Virus record (IMG/VR): IMGVR_UViG_3300046533_000456
Coordinates: 1 to 52,838 of that record
DNA: 52,838 nt
Source: a virus
Direction: 5' to 3' (one strand)
In this document: one piece after another, positions 7,058-49,288 of the stretch
Numbering within the stretch: position 1 is the first letter of the stretch
Layout of the letters: every line of letters begins with the position of its first letter
Made by a program: the position numbers and the translations under genes
The notes under the pieces: model-generated
Told to the model about the DNA's origin: nothing
Seen by the model: only the letters and a program-made list of their open reading frames with translations
Databases searched by the model: none

Positions 7058-7547
7058 CTTGTGTCACTCCCTCTTGTTGAAGCTCTCGTAGTCGCTGGCG
7101 AGCCCCGGCCAGCCGTTCACCGTTGGCGGCTTCCCATTCGGCGAGGGCGCCGCGCCGCCAAGCGTCACCACGCGCATATCGCGCCTCGTTGATCTCGACA
7201 TCGAGGCGGCGCGCCTCGGCTTCGTCGATTTGGCGCTGGGTCAGCATGGGAACCGGCGGCGGTAGAGCGCGGGTCGCTCGCCATGCTCGGGCGTCCCGTT
7301 CCTCGACGCACAGAGCGCGGATGTCGGACGGCAGCGGTCGCCGATGTTCACCTCGACGCCATTCGGTGCAAGCCGTCTCGACCACTGCGGGACCAAACTC
7401 GGCGAGGTCATCGATCCAGTCCTCAATCTGCGCCTGTCGTGCGGCGGCGTGTTCCTGGCCCGTCCAGTAATGGCCCAGCAGTTTTGTCACCAGCGCTGCC
7501 ACTTCCCGCGCTGCGTTCCTGTCGAGCGATCCAAGCGTCAGCGGCAC
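7047..7547 (-). CDS. Putative helicase-loader-like replication protein
   Basis: A 166-residue, helix-rich protein with a GTG start at 7547 preceded by GAAGGAGG. Residues 10-75 (AAREVAALVTKLLGHYWTG…LAEFGPAVVETACTEWRR…LPSDIRALC) follow the pattern of phage helicase loader/inhibitor proteins, in which a bundle is followed by a short P-S-x-x-E/D-I-R motif. The C-terminal half is a long Arg/Glu/Ala helix. It is next to a DUF1376 protein, as in many phage replication modules. Moderately confident about a replication role, less about the exact biochemical function. Confidence 0.6.
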   Translation of the reverse strand: MPLTLGSLDRNAAREVAALVTKLLGHYWTGQEHAAARQAQIEDWIDDLAEFGPAVVETACTEWRRGEHRRPLPSDIRALCVEERDARAWRATRALPPPVPMLTQRQIDEAEARRLDVEINEARYARGDAWRRGALAEWEAANGERLAGARQRLRELQQEGVTQDGR

Positions 7548-8061
7548 GCGCGCCTCCTTCGTGCAACGTCGTCATCGGTCCTTGCCGTGATTTGCGAAAT
7601 CGCAAAGGGGGGATGCCCCCCCCATTCGTGGGGGGGGCTAAAGGGGGGGCTCTTTTCTTTTCTTTTCCCTTCATCGCGCGCGGAGCGTTTCCGCCACCGT
7701 TCACGTTTAGTTTGCTAGAAACTTTTTCAATGTTTGCCGAATTAATGATCAAACTGATTAACGGGTGATAGAGCCGATCGTCGTCGCACAGTACCCAGCC
7801 GTGGAGCGCCATCGGCTTGATCCGGTGCCATGTCCGCAGGTTGCCCTTCACCTCGGTGAGCCGCCACAATTCGATGTCGTCATTGGGCAGCGAGCCGCTC
7901 GGCAGTTGGTCGTAAGACTTTATCCAGAGTGTCACTCCCGCGCGCCATTCGGTGTCGGTTGCCTTGGCGTTAAACGACGAATTGAACAACCGCGTGCGCA
8001 AGATCGGGAACCACGGGAAATGCCCGAGATCAGCATCAGGTGGCACCATTGGCGCGGTCAT
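7423..8061 (-). CDS. DUF1376/YdaU-like replication protein, possible frameshifted end
   Basis: A 212-residue frame. Residues 14-75 carry the DUF1376 pattern (HFPWFPILRTRLF…SLPNDDIELWRLT…HGWVLCDDDRLYHP), a winged-helix domain common in phage replication initiators. After residue 110 the sequence turns low complexity and crosses an eight-base C/G run (7616-7637). Past that run the frame overlaps the next gene by 125 bp. A one-base slip there would give an alternative ending (…ASPLCDFANHGKDR) that stops just before the next gene's ribosome site. The true end is therefore uncertain. It is the first gene of the leftward operon. Confidence 0.7.
   Translation of the reverse strand: MTAPMVPPDADLGHFPWFPILRTRLFNSSFNAKATDTEWRAGVTLWIKSYDQLPSGSLPNDDIELWRLTEVKGNLRTWHRIKPMALHGWVLCDDDRLYHPLISLIINSANIEKVSSKLNVNGGGNAPRAMKGKEKKRAPPLAPPTNGGGIPPLRFRKSRQGPMTTLHEGGARAADAWIARQERSAGSGSAGDKTAGPLLDGPGTRRRTTGAD
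7591..7638 (-). other. Tandem hairpins inside the DUF1376 gene end
   Basis: Two hairpins sit side by side. TTTGCG pairs with CGCAAA (7591-7606), and an ATGC-flanked run of eight C (7616-7623) pairs with eight G (7630-7637). On the + strand the second closes a TTCG tetraloop after one A-T pair. Both G/C homopolymers are prone to slippage in sequencing and in vivo. They lie near the 3' end of one gene and just upstream of the ribosome site of the next, so they may also control translation between them. Confidence 0.5.
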
Positions 8062-8144
8062 TTTATTGGGCTGACATCTCGAGGCGCTCGCCCATCACGC
8101 GAACGCGAGTCGACGGTGCGGTTAGAACGCGCTAATGAGGGTTG

Positions 8145-8831
8145 ATGCTGGCAACCAGCAATCGCCTTCTTCGCGTGCTGACACCGGATCAGCGTGCCTT
8201 GCTCGAACCGCTTGAGCTGGTGGAGTTGCGTGCCGGTGAGGTCATCTACCGGATGGAAGACCCGGTGACGCATTTCATCTTGCCCGAAAAGATGTTGGTT
8301 TCGCTGGTATTTACGTTGAGCGACGGGCAACGGGTCGACATGATGGAGGGCGGTAGAGCGCTGCTCGGCGGGCATACACTCTTTCAAGTCCCAGAGGGGC
8401 TGCACGAATTGTTGGTCCGCATCGGCGGGTTCGGTTGGCGCGTGCCGCGCGAGCGCGTATTGGCTGCAATGGAGCAGAATCCACCGCTGTTTGCTCGGCT
8501 CCGGGCATTGGTGCATCTGATGGACCGAACGATGGCTCAATCGATGGCGTGCCGCAGCGTTCATTCGATCGAGCAGCGTTTCGCCCGCTTGATGCTGCAT
8601 ATTTTCGACACGATCGAAGATGCCCACATCCAGCTTTCGGTGCCGGTTATCGCGCAGATGCTCCCGGCGAACCGGAGCTATTTGCAGCGCTTGATGAGGG
8701 GCTTGGCCGCGCAGGGGATCATAACGACCAACCGGCAGCATATTGAATTGAACGATCTGCGAGCGCTCGCTGCGATATCTTGCCGGTGCCACCGCGAACT
8801 CGTGGTCCAACGGGAACGGGTGTTCGGTTAA
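8145..8831 (+). CDS. Crp/Fnr-family transcription regulator
   Basis: A 228-residue protein. Residues about 10-115 form the cyclic-nucleotide-binding-like beta-barrel (LRAGEVIYRMEDPVTHFIL…GGHTLFQ), followed by a long dimerisation helix and a C-terminal winged helix with SVPVIAQMLPANRSYLQRLMRGLAAQGII. Start at the ATG preceded by GAGG. No cysteine motif for Fe-S or classical cAMP contact was noted, so the ligand is unknown. It is divergently transcribed from the leftward operon, with an 83-bp intergenic region, and could be the switch controlling both directions. Crp/Fnr proteins are more common in hosts than in phages, so it may be host-derived. Confidence 0.85.
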   Translation: MLATSNRLLRVLTPDQRALLEPLELVELRAGEVIYRMEDPVTHFILPEKMLVSLVFTLSDGQRVDMMEGGRALLGGHTLFQVPEGLHELLVRIGGFGWRVPRERVLAAMEQNPPLFARLRALVHLMDRTMAQSMACRSVHSIEQRFARLMLHIFDTIEDAHIQLSVPVIAQMLPANRSYLQRLMRGLAAQGIITTNRQHIELNDLRALAAISCRCHRELVVQRERVFG

Positions 8832-9111
8832 AATTCCGCCGATTTTTTTTGCCGAATATCGCAATTTTTTGTCGAGTTCGTGACTTAGGCGACAACGCAG
8901 CAGCAGCGCTTCTGCTAGCCTTACTTTTGCGTCAAGTGCGGCAGGGCGCTGCACGGCGGATTTCATGGCGGTTCCCCCCGCCTAGAGTGGACGGCGTCAA
9001 AGACTTCGCCAGTCCAATCTCCCCGTCAATGCCAAATTTCGGCCCGATACCCCGCTCGGAGACTAATTTTGAGCATCACGGGAAGTTGTTAAATTTTTTT
9101 TCCAAATCACC

Positions 9112-16459: not shown

Positions 16460-16678
16460 ATGGCCCGCGATCGACTAACCTTCCGGCAACGAGACGTAAC
16501 GGCGGCGATCAAAGCCGTCGAGGCGGCAGGGAAGTCTGTCCACCGGGTCGTGGTCCGCAAGGACGGAGTCGAAGTCATTACCGGCGACGACGTCGAGCAC
16601 TGCACCGATCGCCCGACAGACGCCGATAAACGCATCTTGGAGCGCATGAAGAATGCTTTACCGCCAAAGAAGGTCTGA
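16460..16678 (+). CDS. Hypothetical small protein upstream of integrase
   Basis: A 72-residue basic protein. The layout FRQRDVTAAIKAVEAAGKSVHRVVVRKDGVEVITG (shown in part) is helix-strand-strand, a pattern often seen in small phage proteins encoded next to integrases. A GTTTGCAAAC palindrome lies 22 bp before its start. It overlaps the integrase gene by 26 bp. It could be an excisionase-like or accessory factor by position; there is no HTH motif to support that directly. Confidence 0.6.
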   Translation: MARDRLTFRQRDVTAAIKAVEAAGKSVHRVVVRKDGVEVITGDDVEHCTDRPTDADKRILERMKNALPPKKV

Positions 16679-17807
16679 AGCTGACAAAAAGCTCTGGCCG
16701 CACCTTCACCCCTTCACCGACCGCCACGGGAAGAGACGATGCTACTACCGCTACAAAGGCCGCAGCGTGCCGATCACCGCGGACCCGGTCAAACAGCCCG
16801 AGCTGTTCAAGGCGCAGTACGAGGCCGCGCGTGATGGCAAGCCGATGCCCATCGAGCCGGATCCCGGCGCGCCGAAAGGTCGGCACCCCGCGGGAACGTG
16901 GAACGCCGCGATCGACGACTACCTCGGGACCAGCAAATATGCCGTCAAGGCCGACAACACGAAAAAAGCCTACCAGCCGTGGATCGATCTTCTCCGCGCC
17001 GTCGTCGGCGACGAGCTGATGAAGAACACCACCCGCTGGTCGATCTTCAAGCTCCACGACGAGGTCGTGAAGTCCGATCGCAAGCCGCAGGCGAACACCT
17101 TCCTGTCGGTTCTCAGCAACGTCATCCACGTCGGCAAGATCCGCGACTGGTTGAAGGACGATCTGCTCATCGGCATCGAGCATCAGGAGGTCGAGAGCAA
17201 CAGCCATCGCCCCTACACCCAGGACGAGGTCGAGGCGTGGAGGAGCACCTACCCGATCGGCACGATGGCGCGCGCCGCGTTCGAATTCGTCTATCAGTTC
17301 GCGCTTAGCCGGGCCGAGCTGATCGTGCTCTCGCCGGCCCACATCACGGGCGGCGTGCTCTGGATCACCCGAGTGAAAACCGGCGCACCGCAAGTCGCCA
17401 ACGTCTATGGCGATCCGATCATGTGCGAGGTGTTGGAAGCCTTCCCGCAGGCCGACGACAGCGTCGTCAATCTGCAGGGACGAGCGACAATGCCGTTCCT
17501 ACGCAACCGCTCTGGCAGGCCGTGGCTGTCCAGCGCCTTTGGCAAGCAATGGCGGCGATGGGCCGAGGCCGCGGGACTGCCCAGCGATTTCACGATACAT
17601 GGAGGGCGCAGCACATTCGTTACCGACGCTATGGATACCGGCGTCGCCAATCAGGACGCCATGCGGGTCACCGGGCACCTCGACGAGCGCGTGTTCTCGC
17701 GGGTCTATGGCAAGAAGCACAACAAGGAACGGGCCGCAGCGCGAGCGCAAAAGGCCGTGCTCGCAGAGCGGCAGAAGCGTGCGGCGGCGCTGAAGGTGGT
17801 CGCATGA
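16653..17807 (+). CDS. int: Tyrosine-family phage integrase
   Basis: A 384-residue protein. The N-terminus has an arm-binding-like part (RRCYYRYKGRSVPI), then a core-binding segment (residues about 85-170). The catalytic half keeps Arg in ALSRAEL (near 219), Lys in VKTG (near 242), HGGR (near 317-320, where most relatives have H-x-L-R), the second His in TGH (near 344) and the Tyr in RVYGK (near 352). It is therefore a divergent but intact recombinase, and the phage is probably temperate. GCAAACC-type sites on both sides of the gene are candidates for arm-type binding sites. Confidence 0.85.
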   Translation: MLYRQRRSEADKKLWPHLHPFTDRHGKRRCYYRYKGRSVPITADPVKQPELFKAQYEAARDGKPMPIEPDPGAPKGRHPAGTWNAAIDDYLGTSKYAVKADNTKKAYQPWIDLLRAVVGDELMKNTTRWSIFKLHDEVVKSDRKPQANTFLSVLSNVIHVGKIRDWLKDDLLIGIEHQEVESNSHRPYTQDEVEAWRSTYPIGTMARAAFEFVYQFALSRAELIVLSPAHITGGVLWITRVKTGAPQVANVYGDPIMCEVLEAFPQADDSVVNLQGRATMPFLRNRSGRPWLSSAFGKQWRRWAEAAGLPSDFTIHGGRSTFVTDAMDTGVANQDAMRVTGHLDERVFSRVYGKKHNKERAAARAQKAVLAERQKRAAALKVVA

Positions 17808-18484: not shown

Positions 18485-18630
18485 CTATTTGATTTTGCAA
18501 TGGCGGTGATATGGTTTACCGACATCGCGGGATTAACGCGAAACGCCAGTAAATCAATCACTTAGCCTTGCAAACCACCCCCAAAGGGCACATAGCGCAA
18601 TCAACGGCTTAGTTGGGCGCTCGCAAACCC
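18441..18630. other. GCAAACC sites next to integrase (candidate att/arm region)
   Basis: TTTTGCAAACCACC at 18441-18454, an inverted GGTTTGCG at 18463-18470, CTTGCAAACCACCC at 18567-18580 and CGCAAACCC at 18622-18630 lie just after the integrase-linked genes. A perfect GTTTGCAAAC palindrome stands at 16429-16438 on the other side of the integrase. The direct repeat TTGCAAACCACC occurs twice, 126 bp apart. Between them is the only long non-coding space near the integrase (18485-18660). Arm-type integrase sites around attP, or operators, would look like this; which one is inference. Confidence 0.45.
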
Positions 18631-18660: not shown

Positions 18661-19137
18661 ATGATTAGCATGCTTCAAGTCGCCGAGGAGATAAAAAGCC
18701 TCGAGCGAGAAAACGGGAACCTCGACCCCAACGACGTGGTCGAGCGGGCGCGCGATGTTAACTCGCCCATGCACGGCTTCTTCGAATGGGACGACAACGA
18801 AGCCGCGAAGCAGTACCGCATCAACCAGGCTTGCCTGCTCATCCGCCGCGTCAAGGTTCAGGTCACGGTGCGCGACGTCGACCTCGATGTCGTCCGCTAT
18901 GTCCGCGACCCGGAGGCGTCCGGTCAGTACAGCAACATCCTGCGGGTGCGGGGCGAGGAAGCACGCTCACGGGACGTCGTCGTCGACGAGATGGCTCGCG
19001 TCAAGGGTGCCGCCAAGCGCGCCCGCGCCGTCGCCACCGTCCTCGGCACCACGGCGCAAGTCGACGAGATCATCCGCTTGGCTGAGATCGTCGTCCGGCA
19101 AGCTGGCATCCAAGACCAGCCTCAAGGCGAAGCGTAA
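18661..19137 (+). CDS. Hypothetical conserved phage protein
   Basis: A 158-residue soluble protein. The start at 18661 has GAGGAG 10 bp upstream. The N-terminal region (MLQVAEEIKSLERENGNLDPNDVVERARD…HGFFEWDDNEAAKQYRINQACLLIRRVKV, shown in part) is a pattern I recognise from other phage proteins of unknown function: an acidic helix pair, then W-D-D/E-x-x-A-A-x-x-Y-R-x-x-Q-A. The second half has strands, then a helix containing RAVATVLGTTAQVDEIIRLAE. Upstream of a structured intergenic hairpin and another conserved phage gene. Confidence 0.65.
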   Translation: MISMLQVAEEIKSLERENGNLDPNDVVERARDVNSPMHGFFEWDDNEAAKQYRINQACLLIRRVKVQVTVRDVDLDVVRYVRDPEASGQYSNILRVRGEEARSRDVVVDEMARVKGAAKRARAVATVLGTTAQVDEIIRLAEIVVRQAGIQDQPQGEA

Positions 19138-19217: not shown

Positions 19218-20126
19218 ATGGCACGTACAACTAAAGCTGCTGCAGCACCAGTCGAAATCGACATCATGGATTTGAAGCAGGGGAGCGGCTCGTATTGCTT
19301 AGTCGGCACCACGCCCTTCTACTGCAACCGGATGGCGGCCAAAGCAAAGCGCGAGCTGTTATTGCCGCACGGCCCGATGAGCAAGACGCAAAAGGCGACT
19401 CGATTAAAACATGCGCCTTACGCGGAATATCGGGACTCGCCTTACATCTGCCAGTTCGCAGCGGGCGAGACGCTTCTTGAAATGATCGGCTCAGCGCCAA
19501 AGATGTCGGTCGCTTCGGCGGCGCTGAGAATGCCGACGTCGGCGAGCAAGACCGAGATCAAGCAACTGGTCAGATCGCCCGCCGAGAAGGTGTCGCTGTG
19601 GGGGCTTCCTCGGCTCGATATGTCGGTCGTGCGGATGGCTGGAATTAGCCGAACGCCAGACGTCAGGACTCGCGCCAAGCTCGATCGCTGGGCGATGAAA
19701 ATCACCCTGCTTTGGGCCGAACCGATGCTCTCCGCGACCAAAGTCACGCAACTCCTCGGTGCTGCTGGCTTTATTTGCGGGCTTGGTGACTGGCGGGTGG
19801 AGAAGGGCGGTGAATATGGCGCGTTCCGCCTCGCCGATCCTGACGACGCGGAGCTGCTCGACATCATGCGCGAGGGTGGCTTCCTGGCGCAACAGGAGGC
19901 GCTAAAAACCCCGATCTGCTCTAACTCCGAAAGCGAAGAGCTGATGGGTTGGTATCTCGAAGAGTTGGGCCGCAGGGGCATCGACCCGGAGAAAGAGAAG
20001 CCGGAAGACATCGAGACGGATGACGAGGAGATGCTCTTCCGCGCGGGCGATGAAACCTTGGTAGCGCCCGGTAGTGTTACCGAGGCCTTGCCGGTTCAAC
20101 AAAATGGGGAGGACTTTCATCCTTAG
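19218..20126 (+). CDS. Hypothetical conserved phage protein
   Basis: A 302-residue protein preceded by AAGGAAGGA. No recognised catalytic motif. The middle portion (residues 60-225) is the most conserved-looking: KHAPYAEYRDSPY, LRMPTSASKTEIKQLVRSPAEKV, TPDVRTRAKLDRWAMKITLLWA, ICGLGDWRVEKGGEYGAFRL. The C-terminal 70 residues are acidic and probably disordered. The pair formed with the gene before it looks like a unit. It is the last gene before the 2.2-kb repeat array. Function unknown. Confidence 0.7.
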   Translation: MARTTKAAAAPVEIDIMDLKQGSGSYCLVGTTPFYCNRMAAKAKRELLLPHGPMSKTQKATRLKHAPYAEYRDSPYICQFAAGETLLEMIGSAPKMSVASAALRMPTSASKTEIKQLVRSPAEKVSLWGLPRLDMSVVRMAGISRTPDVRTRAKLDRWAMKITLLWAEPMLSATKVTQLLGAAGFICGLGDWRVEKGGEYGAFRLADPDDAELLDIMREGGFLAQQEALKTPICSNSESEELMGWYLEELGRRGIDPEKEKPEDIETDDEEMLFRAGDETLVAPGSVTEALPVQQNGEDFHP

Positions 20127-20149
20127 ACACCGATTGGTGCGTTTTATGG

Positions 20150-22325
20150 CTGACCACCGGGTGCCCGCTGCGCCCGGTGGCAGCGTCACGGAAGCGGCGG
20201 TCATGGCTCGGTAGCGACTGGTGGGGCACGGCCCGCTCCAGACAAGGTTGGGCACGGCTTGGCGGTCATCGTAAGGATCGATTCGGCAAGGCGTTGTACG
20301 CCTCGGGGTGGAAAGGCACGGCTTGGCCCGGCCCGGTACGGCGGTAATGGTCGGTTGGGAGGGGTGAGGATGTGGCCTGGTGAGGGATGGCCCGGCGGGG
20401 TTCGACCCGGCGGTAGCGTTCTGTGTTTGGCAGTTTCAGGTTAGGCGCGATCGTGAAAGGCGGGGTGCGGTGCGGCGGTCGTGGCCAGACAGGGAATGCA
20501 TTGGTCTGGGCAGGCTAGGCCGGACGAGGTCTGCCGTGGCGTGGCGGTCGCGGTGGGGCGTGGTTGGCCAAGGATCGGCTTGGTGCGCCCAGGAGTGGCA
20601 GCGCGGGCGGTCGTGGCAAAGTCGGTTTGGGATCGGCTCGGTGATGTAAGGCGTGCCGGGCGGTAACGGTCGGGCTAGGCAAGGTAAGGAACGCCTCGGC
20701 GACGGCTAGGTTGGGCGCGGCCCGGTGTGGCGCGGCGGTCGTGGCGAGCGACGCAGAGGCTTGGAATGGCGCGTTCGGGTCCGTTCGGGGCGAGGCCGGG
20801 TCCGGTGATTTCCGGCGTGGCTGGCATGGCTGGGCGGTTGCGGCCAGACAGGGATGGGTGCTGTGCGGCGGCGCCGGTCAAGGCTCGGTCGTGCAGGGCA
20901 TGACTTGGTTCGGCGGTTGCGATCGTGGCTGGGTTTCGAAGGAAACGGTCTTGGATCGGCGGTCCAGGCCAGGTCTGGCGGGGCGGGGCGGGGAGTGGAC
21001 CGACTTGGCGGTTGTGGCGCGTTTTAGGCTAGGAGCGTTACGGCGGTCGAGGCTGGGTGGGGCTGGTCTTGTTTCTGATGCAGTCTGGCGGGGCTGGGTC
21101 CGGCGGTCGTGATTGGGCTTCGTTCGCATCGGCCCGGCCTGGCGCGACGTGGCGCGGCTAGGCGGTCTAGGCATGTTCTGACGGGGATGGGCTGAGCTGG
21201 GAGAGCTTTGGACGGGCGGTCGTGGCTGGGACGGGCAGCTTGCGGATAGACATGACGTGGCTCGGCGGTCGTGGTCGGCCACGGCTCGGTAAGGAGCGCT
21301 AGGCGCGCTTGGCAGGCCGCGGCGGTCGTGGTCGGGGATAGATCGTGTCTGTGACGGGTTGGGAGAGGCTTGGGCCGGCGGTCCCGGTTTGGCCGGTTGA
21401 GGCGTGGTTGGGCTGCGCTGGATGAGGCTCACAGAGGTTAGGTTTGGCCCGGCGGGGCGGTCGTGGTCGGTCCAGGCGGGGCACGATCGTGAAAGGCGGC
21501 GTCAGGCGGTCGAGGAGCGGCGGGGTCTGGGCTGGATCCGGCAAGCTGGGGCGGGGCCGGTTGGGGTCTGTCAGGGTGCGTCGCGGTCAGGCGTGGCGGT
21601 CGTGGTCGGTCAAGGAATGGTTGGGTGCGGCGCGCAAGGCGAGGTCCGGCGGTTACGGCGGGGTCAGGCATGGTCGGTTTCAGGTCGGGCAGGCCACGGT
21701 GGGGAAGGTCTGGGCGAGGCATGACCGGGTTAGGACAGGCGGTCATGGCAAGGTGACCCAAGGTTTGGCCGCGCCGGTTCCGGCATGGCACGGCGGTCAT
21801 GGCGGGGAACGACCGGGCTGCGAACGGACGGTCTTGCCTGGGTTTGGCGTGGCGTCGCTCGGAGGCGCGGTCGGGGTCAGCCTACGTGTGGAGTGAAACG
21901 GCGGGGTTAGGCTTGGCGGTCGTGGCTAGACCAGGCATGGGGCGGCATGCTCGAGGTTCGGCGCTTCGTGGCGCAGCGGTCGTGACGTGGCTAGGTCTGC
22001 GGATGGCCAGGTTAGGTCGGCGCGGCGGTCAGGGCGGGGATCGGCTCGATCGAAGGCAGGGCTGGGCGCGGCTAGGACTGGGCACGGTCATGGTGTGGCT
22101 CGGCGGTCTAGGCAGGTTCCGCCTCATCCCGGCTCTGTGAGGTTGGGCATGGCCCGGCGGTTGAGGCGGGGTGGGTTGTGGCTGGCTCGCGGCAAGCCAA
22201 GGCCCGCTGTGGCGGTAGAGGCAAGGCTGGGCCGGGCGCCGGAGTGGCTTGGGCGGCATGGCGCGGCGGTCATGGCCCAAAGTTTTGATATGGCCAGGCC
22301 GGGCCGCTTGCTCGGATGGCGGTAA
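20150..22325. repeat. 2.2-kb G-rich, gene-free array with ~34 GGCGGTCGTGG-like cores
   Basis: A core close to GGCGGTCGTGG recurs about 34 times from 20196 to 22318 (for example 20261, 20474, 20606, 20734, 21102, 21215, 21264, 21321, 21456, 21595, 21915, 22024, 22264), always in the same orientation. Spacing is mostly 48-80 bp and averages about 64 bp. Spacers differ from each other but share a strong G-over-C bias and words such as TGGTTGGG and GGCATGGC. Spacing is not a multiple of three, ribosome sites are absent, and open frames on both strands are compositional, so it is treated as non-coding. It ends at a hairpin near 22343. Confidence 0.8.
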
Positions 22326-22334
22326 CCCCCTAAA

Positions 22335-22365
22335 AGCAAAACGCCGGTCAGAGTGGCTGACCGGC
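22335..22365 (-). terminator. Hairpin terminator facing the repeat array
   Basis: GCCGGTCAG (22343-22351) pairs perfectly with CTGACCGGC (22357-22365) around a five-base loop. Read leftward, the stem is followed by GTTTTGCTTTTAG, a U-rich tail, so it fits a rho-independent terminator for leftward transcripts before they reach the array. Read rightward it stands 19 bp before a small peptide ORF and may serve as its leader. Confidence 0.6.
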
Positions 22366-22384
22366 ATCTGGAAGGAGGACTGCG

Positions 22385-47350: not shown

Positions 47351-49288
47351 TTATGGCCCCCAGTTCACCCCGGTCATGTATTGCACCATGCCGGGCCGCC
47401 TCATCGCCCAGGTGACATTGGCCAACATCCTGATCGCGATCTGCGCGGTCTGGAACATCGACTGCACCGGAGCGGCGACAACCGGCGGGGTGCCAGCAGT
47501 GCCGATGTTGAGCGGGGTGGTGTCCTCCATGTGCACGGTCGCGACCTCGCTGATCTCGAATTCGGGCGCGCCCGAAACGGACACGAAGTCCACAGCATCG
47601 ATCATGTACACCGACCCTGACGGGATCGAGGTCGACTCGATGACCGCGAAGCGCTGGGTGAACTGACTGGCCCACCCGAACTGGACGCCGGTCGGACCTG
47701 GCGCAAAGATCAGTTGCTGCCCCTGCGCCGGGTTCATCAGCATCGCCAGCTTGCGACCCGCATTAACCGCGTAGAACGGGTTCGTCAGCGCCTGGATGTC
47801 GGCCAAGATCGCCGCGTAGCCCTTCGCGGTCGAAGCGGTAACCGCCACCACACCGTTGGTCAGGCCCGCTGGGCGGGTCGTGGACGTCGGAGCGGCATCG
47901 AGCAGCAGCGCATCGATGTTGATCGAGGTGTCGTCCGCGATAGCCTCGCGAATAATCCCTTCGATCGCCGGGTTGGAGTACATCGCGATTTCGCGCGAAA
48001 ACACCGACAAGCCGCCGACTTTGTGGGGATACAACGTGATGCTCGTCGTCCCCAACCTGCGCACCGGAATCGGCGCACCTTCGGCCACGAACGAGCCACC
48101 GATCGACGGGGTGGTCGTCCTCGAGGGGATCTTGATCGATCCCGCATTCGCGCCGAAAGTCAGCGACGTGCCCATGCCCGCAAGCGGCTGGAACACGCTG
48201 ACCGGCGTCAGCACTTGCAGGAAATCGGCCTGCCCGAGCTGAACCAAATCCATCGCCCATCCGGGTGTGGTCGTGGTCGCCCCTGCTATCGCGGCACGGG
48301 TGACGACTGCCGTCAGATCGTGGTCCGGGTAGCGTTCGTGCAGCACATCGTCGATCGAGCGATGGGTGACCTGGGAGATGAACTTGACCACCATCGCCCG
48401 GGCGAGAAGCTCGCCAGGAGCGAGATCCTTGACCGCCATGCCGAGCGGTGGGCGACGAGCAACTCCCGTCCCCGCCGCCTGCTGTTGCTGCTGCTGCCCC
48501 AGCCCCTGATCGACAGCCCGTTGCGCCAGCGCTTTTTCGGTGCGCTGTAGCGAGGCGAGCCGTTCCTCGTGTTCACCGATCTCCTCTTGCAGCAGATCGG
48601 CTTCCGCCGTGTCGTGATCTGGGTCGCGTGTAAGTTCGATAAGCGCATCACGGGCAGCGTTGAGCATGAGCTGCCGGTCCTCGATCTGTCTTCCGACAGG
48701 AGTTGGTTGTCCGTTCATCGGGATCGCCCTTCTGCTTGGCGATTGACGTTCGGCTTGCCCGCCGCGGTTTAGTGCCAGGCCGTCTCGGCTTCGTGCTTGC
48801 CCGCTGAAGACGAGGGACATGGTTTCATGTGAAACATGCAGTGACTTCGCCACTTGCAGTGCCGCCGGGTTGGCGGGCACGCTGACGATCGACGTTTCGA
48901 GCAGCTCCTGTTTGGTGTAGCGCTGCCCGCCGTAAGGGTCTTTCGGGTCGATAGCCTCAGACTCGATCGGGTAAAACCCGACCGACGTCGCGCGCAGGAT
49001 GTCCTGCTCGATCAGGTTGATGATTTCATCGACGCGTTGGGAGGTGCCGCGGGCCGCCGGGACAAAATCACCGAGCAGCTTGCCGCCCTCGGTGCGGACG
49101 TTCGCCCAGGTGCCGATCGGAAAGCTGCCCTGATGCCCGAACAGCGCGATCGGGTTGCGCCGAAAGTTGTCGAGCATCCAGCCGGTCGGCTCGATGATGT
49201 CACCGTAGCGGTCGACCGTCGCGTCGCTGAGAATATAGGTCATCGACCCCGCGACCTTGCCGGTCACGACTTTGCGGATGGTGTCCAC
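47351..49288 (-). CDS. Fused prohead protease-major capsid protein
   Basis: A 645-residue protein. Residues 1-150 are an S78-type prohead protease with His52 (LFGHQGSF) and Ser102 (RATSVGFYP). A Gln/Arg-rich linker (about 195-285, containing QQQQQQ) acts as delta/scaffold domain. Residues 290-645 are an HK97-fold major capsid (ITLYPHKVGGLSVFSREIAMYSNPAIE; FYAVNAGRKLAMLMNPAQGQQL, in part). The start is set at GTG 49288 rather than ATG 49300, because aligning the leader with those of the tail tube and chaperone puts GATGGAG in the ribosome-site position. Self-cleavage should release mature capsid protein. Confidence 0.9.
   Translation of the reverse strand: MDTIRKVVTGKVAGSMTYILSDATVDRYGDIIEPTGWMLDNFRRNPIALFGHQGSFPIGTWANVRTEGGKLLGDFVPAARGTSQRVDEIINLIEQDILRATSVGFYPIESEAIDPKDPYGGQRYTKQELLETSIVSVPANPAALQVAKSLHVSHETMSLVFSGQARSRDGLALNRGGQAERQSPSRRAIPMNGQPTPVGRQIEDRQLMLNAARDALIELTRDPDHDTAEADLLQEEIGEHEERLASLQRTEKALAQRAVDQGLGQQQQQQAAGTGVARRPPLGMAVKDLAPGELLARAMVVKFISQVTHRSIDDVLHERYPDHDLTAVVTRAAIAGATTTTPGWAMDLVQLGQADFLQVLTPVSVFQPLAGMGTSLTFGANAGSIKIPSRTTTPSIGGSFVAEGAPIPVRRLGTTSITLYPHKVGGLSVFSREIAMYSNPAIEGIIREAIADDTSINIDALLLDAAPTSTTRPAGLTNGVVAVTASTAKGYAAILADIQALTNPFYAVNAGRKLAMLMNPAQGQQLIFAPGPTGVQFGWASQFTQRFAVIESTSIPSGSVYMIDAVDFVSVSGAPEFEISEVATVHMEDTTPLNIGTAGTPPVVAAPVQSMFQTAQIAIRMLANVTWAMRRPGMVQYMTGVNWGP

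Follow-up and report, generated by a model that had tools for sequence, protein, structure and literature searches.

Organization of the locus

The window, i.e. the whole stretch of viral DNA analysed here (52,838 nucleotides, IMG/VR record IMGVR_UViG_3300046533_000456), contains a tract of direct cores which starts directly after the stop codon of a 302-aa gene (20126). The features of this region are the following:

18661-19137, + strand: candidate vap (Vipr accessory protein) gene, 158 aa from its ATG, PHROG 15946 (phrog_15946, E=2e-16)
19218-20126, + strand: vipr gene, 302-aa RAMP/Cas7-fold protein with the G-loop GLGDWRVEKGGEYGAF (profile, hhalign and AF2/Foldseek)
20149-20184, + strand: leader hairpin before the first core (MFE -31.1, z -4.8)
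20196-22323, + strand: array with 33 GGCGGT cores and 31 decoded YNNGG segments of 7-23 units, read below as a vrRNA guide array
22339-22369, - strand: hairpin at the right end of the array, terminator-like on the - strand only, with no U tract on the + side

A tyrosine integrase gene (16653-17807) lies three kilobases to the left of the array, thus the phage is temperate. The terminase, portal and fused protease/head genes are found on the - strand at the right end of the window. No DNA similarity between the window and cultured phages was detected. The leader hairpin is kept in the relatives with a compensatory change of a C-G to a U-A pair (alignment with L010 and L013), and a promoter scan gave no candidate.

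All 33 GGCGGT cores are on the + strand and none is on the - strand, while dinucleotide-preserving shuffles contained 5.1 +/- 2.2 of them; the longer core form GGCGGTNNNGG was observed 28 times against 1.1 expected from the same kind of shuffles. The core-to-core spacing is 35-123 with a mean of 66, and the G-over-C skew of the array (0.30-0.35) is far from that of the remainder of the window. An identical copy of the array, together with the whole locus, is present in another contig (L009), and diverged copies occupy the same position, downstream of the same gene, in the relatives L010-L013. The original prediction of about 34 cores in a one-directional, strongly G-biased array, bounded on the left by the end of a gene, could therefore be confirmed both by the shuffles and by the conservation among relatives, and the tract is not an assembly artefact. 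The hairpin terminator proposed for the right end held only in part, since the hairpin is present but resembles a terminator for - strand transcription only.

The Vipr protein and its neighbourhood

VIPR (Viral Interference Programmable Repeat) was defined in a recent preprint (PMC13142463; bioRxiv 2026.04.26.720920) as a RAMP protein acting with vrRNAs of 9-16 YNNGG repeats, which read double-stranded DNA via their NN pairs, one base being skipped between the pairs. When a profile of 37 relatives of the 302-aa protein was compared with the PDB, a single match was obtained, namely 36pp_D, the 'SUSP1 Vipr protein' (E=1.1e-6), and hhalign aligned the family, including the G-loop, with the Viprs of SUSP1 and LESphi2 (prob 97, E=9e-12). 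In the Foldseek search with the AlphaFold2 model of the protein (pLDDT 82.6), essentially all top hits were Csm3/Cas7 backbone subunits. Pfam gave no match for the protein itself and a relative showed a weak RAMP match. The 302-aa protein is thus established as a RAMP homologue with a G-loop, related to the SUSP1 Vipr; its closest relatives (74% identity) are encoded in L010-L013.

The candidate vap ORF, whose start may be at 18613, aligned with gp41 of Gordonia phage UmaThurman, and its homologues adjoin vipr in about 120 fetched loci, on either side of the array. Over 100 additional viral loci with this gene neighbourhood came from one pattern search and two protein searches. In 99 of 122 vipr-bearing relatives, i.e. 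those with at least 700 bases downstream, some of which had been fetched through the array itself, YNNGG runs were found directly downstream of vipr, so that the gene is flanked by long intergenic RNA-bearing tracts as in VIPR. A degenerate array pattern, applied to viral and genome contigs, lacked specificity and gave many matches in glycine-rich coding DNA, yet it surfaced the true relatives.

In the sister phage L012, a ResIII/DEAD helicase gene (7331-8911) follows the array directly, where the window has other small ORFs; it is possible that accessory genes are exchanged at this place. The - strand of a viral contig (G017; L426 3804-5429) encodes a distant Vipr of 270 aa, downstream of which YNNGG runs are found; this contig comes from a phage whose terminase is related to that of the window. 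Chromosomal Vipr relatives with YNNGG runs on the same contig were found in two Hyphomicrobiales-order genomes (L498 and L499, E=2e-34 and 2e-29).

Unit grammar and guide boundaries

The G residues of the array recur with a pronounced period of 5 nt (autocorrelation at 5 plus 10 of 0.48, compared with 0.00 +/- 0.03 and a maximum of 0.09 in shuffles). Aligned on the cores, the array takes the form ...YNNGG YNN GGCGGT C RN GG YNNGG... In 326 five-nt units, the Y position was C or T at a frequency of 0.86, the first G was kept at 0.90 and the second at 0.77, while the NN positions had an entropy of 1.98-1.99 bits. The array is thus a tandem series of YNNGG (GGY/NN) repeats in which GGY is conserved and NN is hypervariable. 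This strict 5-nt order, with little 3-nt signal, agrees with the non-coding nature assumed earlier, but it had been overlooked when the spacers were described as merely unlike. At the core the phase is shifted, with GG-to-GG distances of 3 and 6 rather than 5 and 5, and this accounts for the preference of the core spacings for values congruent to 4 modulo 5 (15 of 32).

The 11-nt core is the only constant element of the array, and the segments abut. The 31 segments have a median of 10 units, plus the RN unit within the core, which was counted as agreeing with the repeat number of vrRNAs. Units flanking a core-to-core segment matched the targets at chance level (0.20-0.35 upstream, 0.05-0.25 downstream), while addition of the core-internal RN (GGCGGTC-RN-GG) lengthened most of the best matches, e.g. 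that of an L334 guide to L304, which became 24/24. Thus one guide begins with RN, its first letter pair, and ends with the last NN ahead of the following core. In units of 4 or 6 nt it is the two bases preceding GG that are read. The arrays of the sister phages L013 (6990-7509) and L012 (4737-7321) have few segments in common and these stand in a different order, which suggests a rapid shuffling or replacement of guides.

The reading rule

From arrays beside vipr genes 608 unique guides were decoded and compared, with skips of 0-4 bases, to 3.3 Mb of phage and prophage DNA in which arrays had been masked and from which the loci fetched by guide patterns were excluded; six unit-shuffled guide sets served as the null. 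At a skip of 1, a matched run of at least 18 was reached by 8 of the 608 guides of the clade and by none in the six shuffled sets, and a run of 17 by 13 guides against 0-2 in the shuffled sets. Pairing across the clade thus follows a one-nucleotide skip and is not contiguous, and the reading rule of VIPR is recovered independently of the data of the preprint. The other skips stayed near their nulls, except for skip 3, where 3 guides had a run of at least 18; these matches, which count against the reading as a VIPR array, perhaps come from unmasked array remnants. In nearly all of the strongest matches, on either strand, the skipped base was codon position 3.

Identity of the tract

On the basis of the homology and fold of Vipr and of the YNNGG grammar, the tract is almost certainly the guide-RNA (vrRNA) array of a VIPR system in a temperate tailed phage. 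An RNA was among the possibilities listed in the original prediction, but a structured RNA, a replication or partition array and a decoy array found no support, and its remark that no described phage element has this layout no longer holds, VIPR having been described in April-June 2026 (PMC13142463).

One rival reading is a long RNA, structured or acting as a sponge, which would sequester a host factor that binds G-rich RNA and would target no DNA; the predicted G-rich periodic transcript and the leader hairpin would suit it. We consider it very improbable, since no Rfam family exceeded the gathering score (a single match, E=4.3, was due to chance), the letters at the NN positions vary to the maximum and nevertheless agree with target genes in codon register, and a guide common to two phages keeps 17 of 18 NN letters while several scaffold letters differ. 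Even less can be said for an array of DNA sites to which a replication, partition or recombination protein binds (iterons, a centromere or recombination sites). The direct cores in one orientation, their fairly regular spacing and the integrase gene nearby would suit such an array, but the information resides in the YNNGG units throughout and not in the core alone, the NN letters match the genes of other phages under the 1-nt skip, and the gene upstream encodes a Vipr homologue and not a Par or Rep protein. The Cas7 (RAMP) fold of the upstream protein might suggest a CRISPR array or mini-array, which is hardly credible because the tract lacks long identical or near-identical direct repeats and unique contiguous spacers, its matches appear at skip 1 and not at skip 0, and no cas genes were found beside it. 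Finally, protein-coding or low-complexity DNA mistaken for non-coding can practically be dismissed: mechanical ORFs of up to 184 aa exist in the tract and a tract of the same kind is annotated as gp40 in UmaThurman, but the period is 5 nt with little 3-nt signal (p3 about -0.04), and the 5-nt grammar is kept in L010-L013 while the letters diverge.

If the VIPR array works as the systems of the preprint do, its rightward transcription would give RNAs built of YNNGG units, along which copies of Vipr would bind; the protein would hold the GGY bases and display the NN pairs. These pairs would recognise double-stranded DNA by skipping one target base from pair to pair, and the gene at the bound DNA would be repressed. 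The core GGCGGT-C-RN-GG punctuates the array and separates the guides, and the RNA might be processed there. Assembly of the ribonucleoprotein and repression are taken over from PMC13142463, and that the array is transcribed and processed is likewise presumed by analogy.

VIPR, known for some months from a single preprint, breaks with the rule of contiguous guide-RNA pairing. From sequence alone, the present locus lends support to the VIPR reading code in a distant clade with multi-guide arrays and reveals how these arrays are punctuated.

Phage targets

Many guides of one related clade, from about ten VIPR loci, meet at a single conserved site in a gene for the terminase large subunit (L046 996-1030, region 960-1030); marine VIPR phages are predicted to converge on a single terminase site. 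A guide of the sister phage L011/L012 (L011 6641) reads I-G-T-P-G-T-P-P-I-V-A; in the major head gene of a relative (PHROG 617) 21 of its 22 letters match, and at the homologous site of a third phage 18 of 22. The phage of the window has the following site:

47474-47506, - strand: site within the major head gene of the window phage itself, to which the L011 6641 guide matches at 20/22

Since this guide matches the head genes of relatives, the phages of the family are predicted to carry guides against one another's head gene.

For most guides of the window no target was identified, and this too counts against the reading as a VIPR array; among its own guides there is one candidate target, described in the next section. 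Another guide had 0 matches in 101 genomes. The guide at 21648-21737, which has 15 of 16 letters in common with L011, gave 9 viral matches without a consistent codon register, which were taken as chance.

A candidate guide against CapV

The guide with the candidate target lies close to the right end of the array:

22156-22210, + strand: guide GA GG GG GT TG GC AA AA CC GT, candidate target CapV, 20/20 to DGGVWANNPV codons

It is the guide mentioned above whose decoded letters are kept, 17 of 18 being identical in L011/L012. A 17-letter gapped search of viral contigs with this guide gave 8 contigs, all of them at DGGVWANNP codons and 4 at 20/20. The target proteins tested (7 of 7) matched the PADLOC phospholipase effector models with E below 1e-79, as well as Pfam patatin. 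Proteins with the CapV motif adjoin cyclases in 5 of 5 tested contigs and E2 genes of CBASS operons in 2 of 2. With one more fixed base, the CapV pattern had 6 matches in 297 genomes against 0 for the backward control, and the sister-phage version, with one mismatch allowed, matched only the DGGVWANNP motif in 115 genomes. With up to 2 mismatches the pattern had 31 matches, still more than the control with about 10, but the majority of the 31 had no relation to CapV. The unit-reversed control pattern also matched a conserved viral motif, PKNTWVGGD, in 7 contigs; thus matches in codon register are not in themselves proof, and a chance match to a protein family is possible.

Taking these results together, we somewhat favour the view that the guide would silence the CBASS phospholipase effector CapV via its conserved DGGVWANNP(V) motif. 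If so, wobble skipping would let one guide fit many CapV genes irrespective of their synonymous codons, and VIPR would be an RNA-guided counter-defence weapon and not only a weapon of phage against phage. A phage guide which spells a motif conserved in a bacterial enzyme of anti-phage defence points to a possible use of VIPR against host immunity besides rival phages; fitting a family of CBASS effectors through their catalytic motif would be a candidate new role for such a guide.

Comparison with known systems

The SUSP1 and Pseudomonas fulva prophage VIPRs (type II; PMC13142463) resemble the window locus in having a RAMP Vipr, GGY/NN tandem repeats, the 1-nt skip and wobble-aligned targets in other phages, and their accessory gene may have its counterpart in the candidate vap gene, and the SUSP1 locus, read from its genome record, has the same YNNGG grammar. 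The window, however, has about 33 guides in a continuous array, punctuated by GGCGGTC-RN-GG, whereas the type II systems have four separate vrRNAs of about 100 nt, and the Vipr of the window is longer (302 aa vs 195). After the repeat tracts of the window there is no invariant 3' tail such as type II vrRNAs have; this also counts against the reading as a VIPR array, and since abutting segments leave no room for a tail, the array was not filed as type II. It may correspond to the 'staggered arrays with overlapping vrRNAs' (fig. S18, PMC13142463), a likeness drawn from this phrase of the preprint.

In the LESphi2 prophage of P. aeruginosa LESB58 (L401 2570-2870), P21_9 is a Vipr homologue with 38% identity to the SUSP1 protein, and YNNGG runs lie immediately upstream.

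Compared with Class 1 CRISPR-Cas, in which Csm3/Cas7 forms a backbone on the crRNA, the window locus shares the RAMP fold but differs in its noncontiguous guides and in having neither CRISPR repeats nor a cas operon.

UmaThurman (NC_031249) is a cultured VIPR phage related to the window locus. The annotated gp40 (L400 3619-3945) overlies its YNNGG guide array between gp39 and gp41, and is probably a spurious ORF. Its gp39 is a homologous Vipr (E=5e-14), gp41 is a homologue of the candidate accessory protein and a YNNGG array follows vipr directly, as in the window; the difference is that this array is only about 0.33 kb long and is located between the vipr and the accessory genes.
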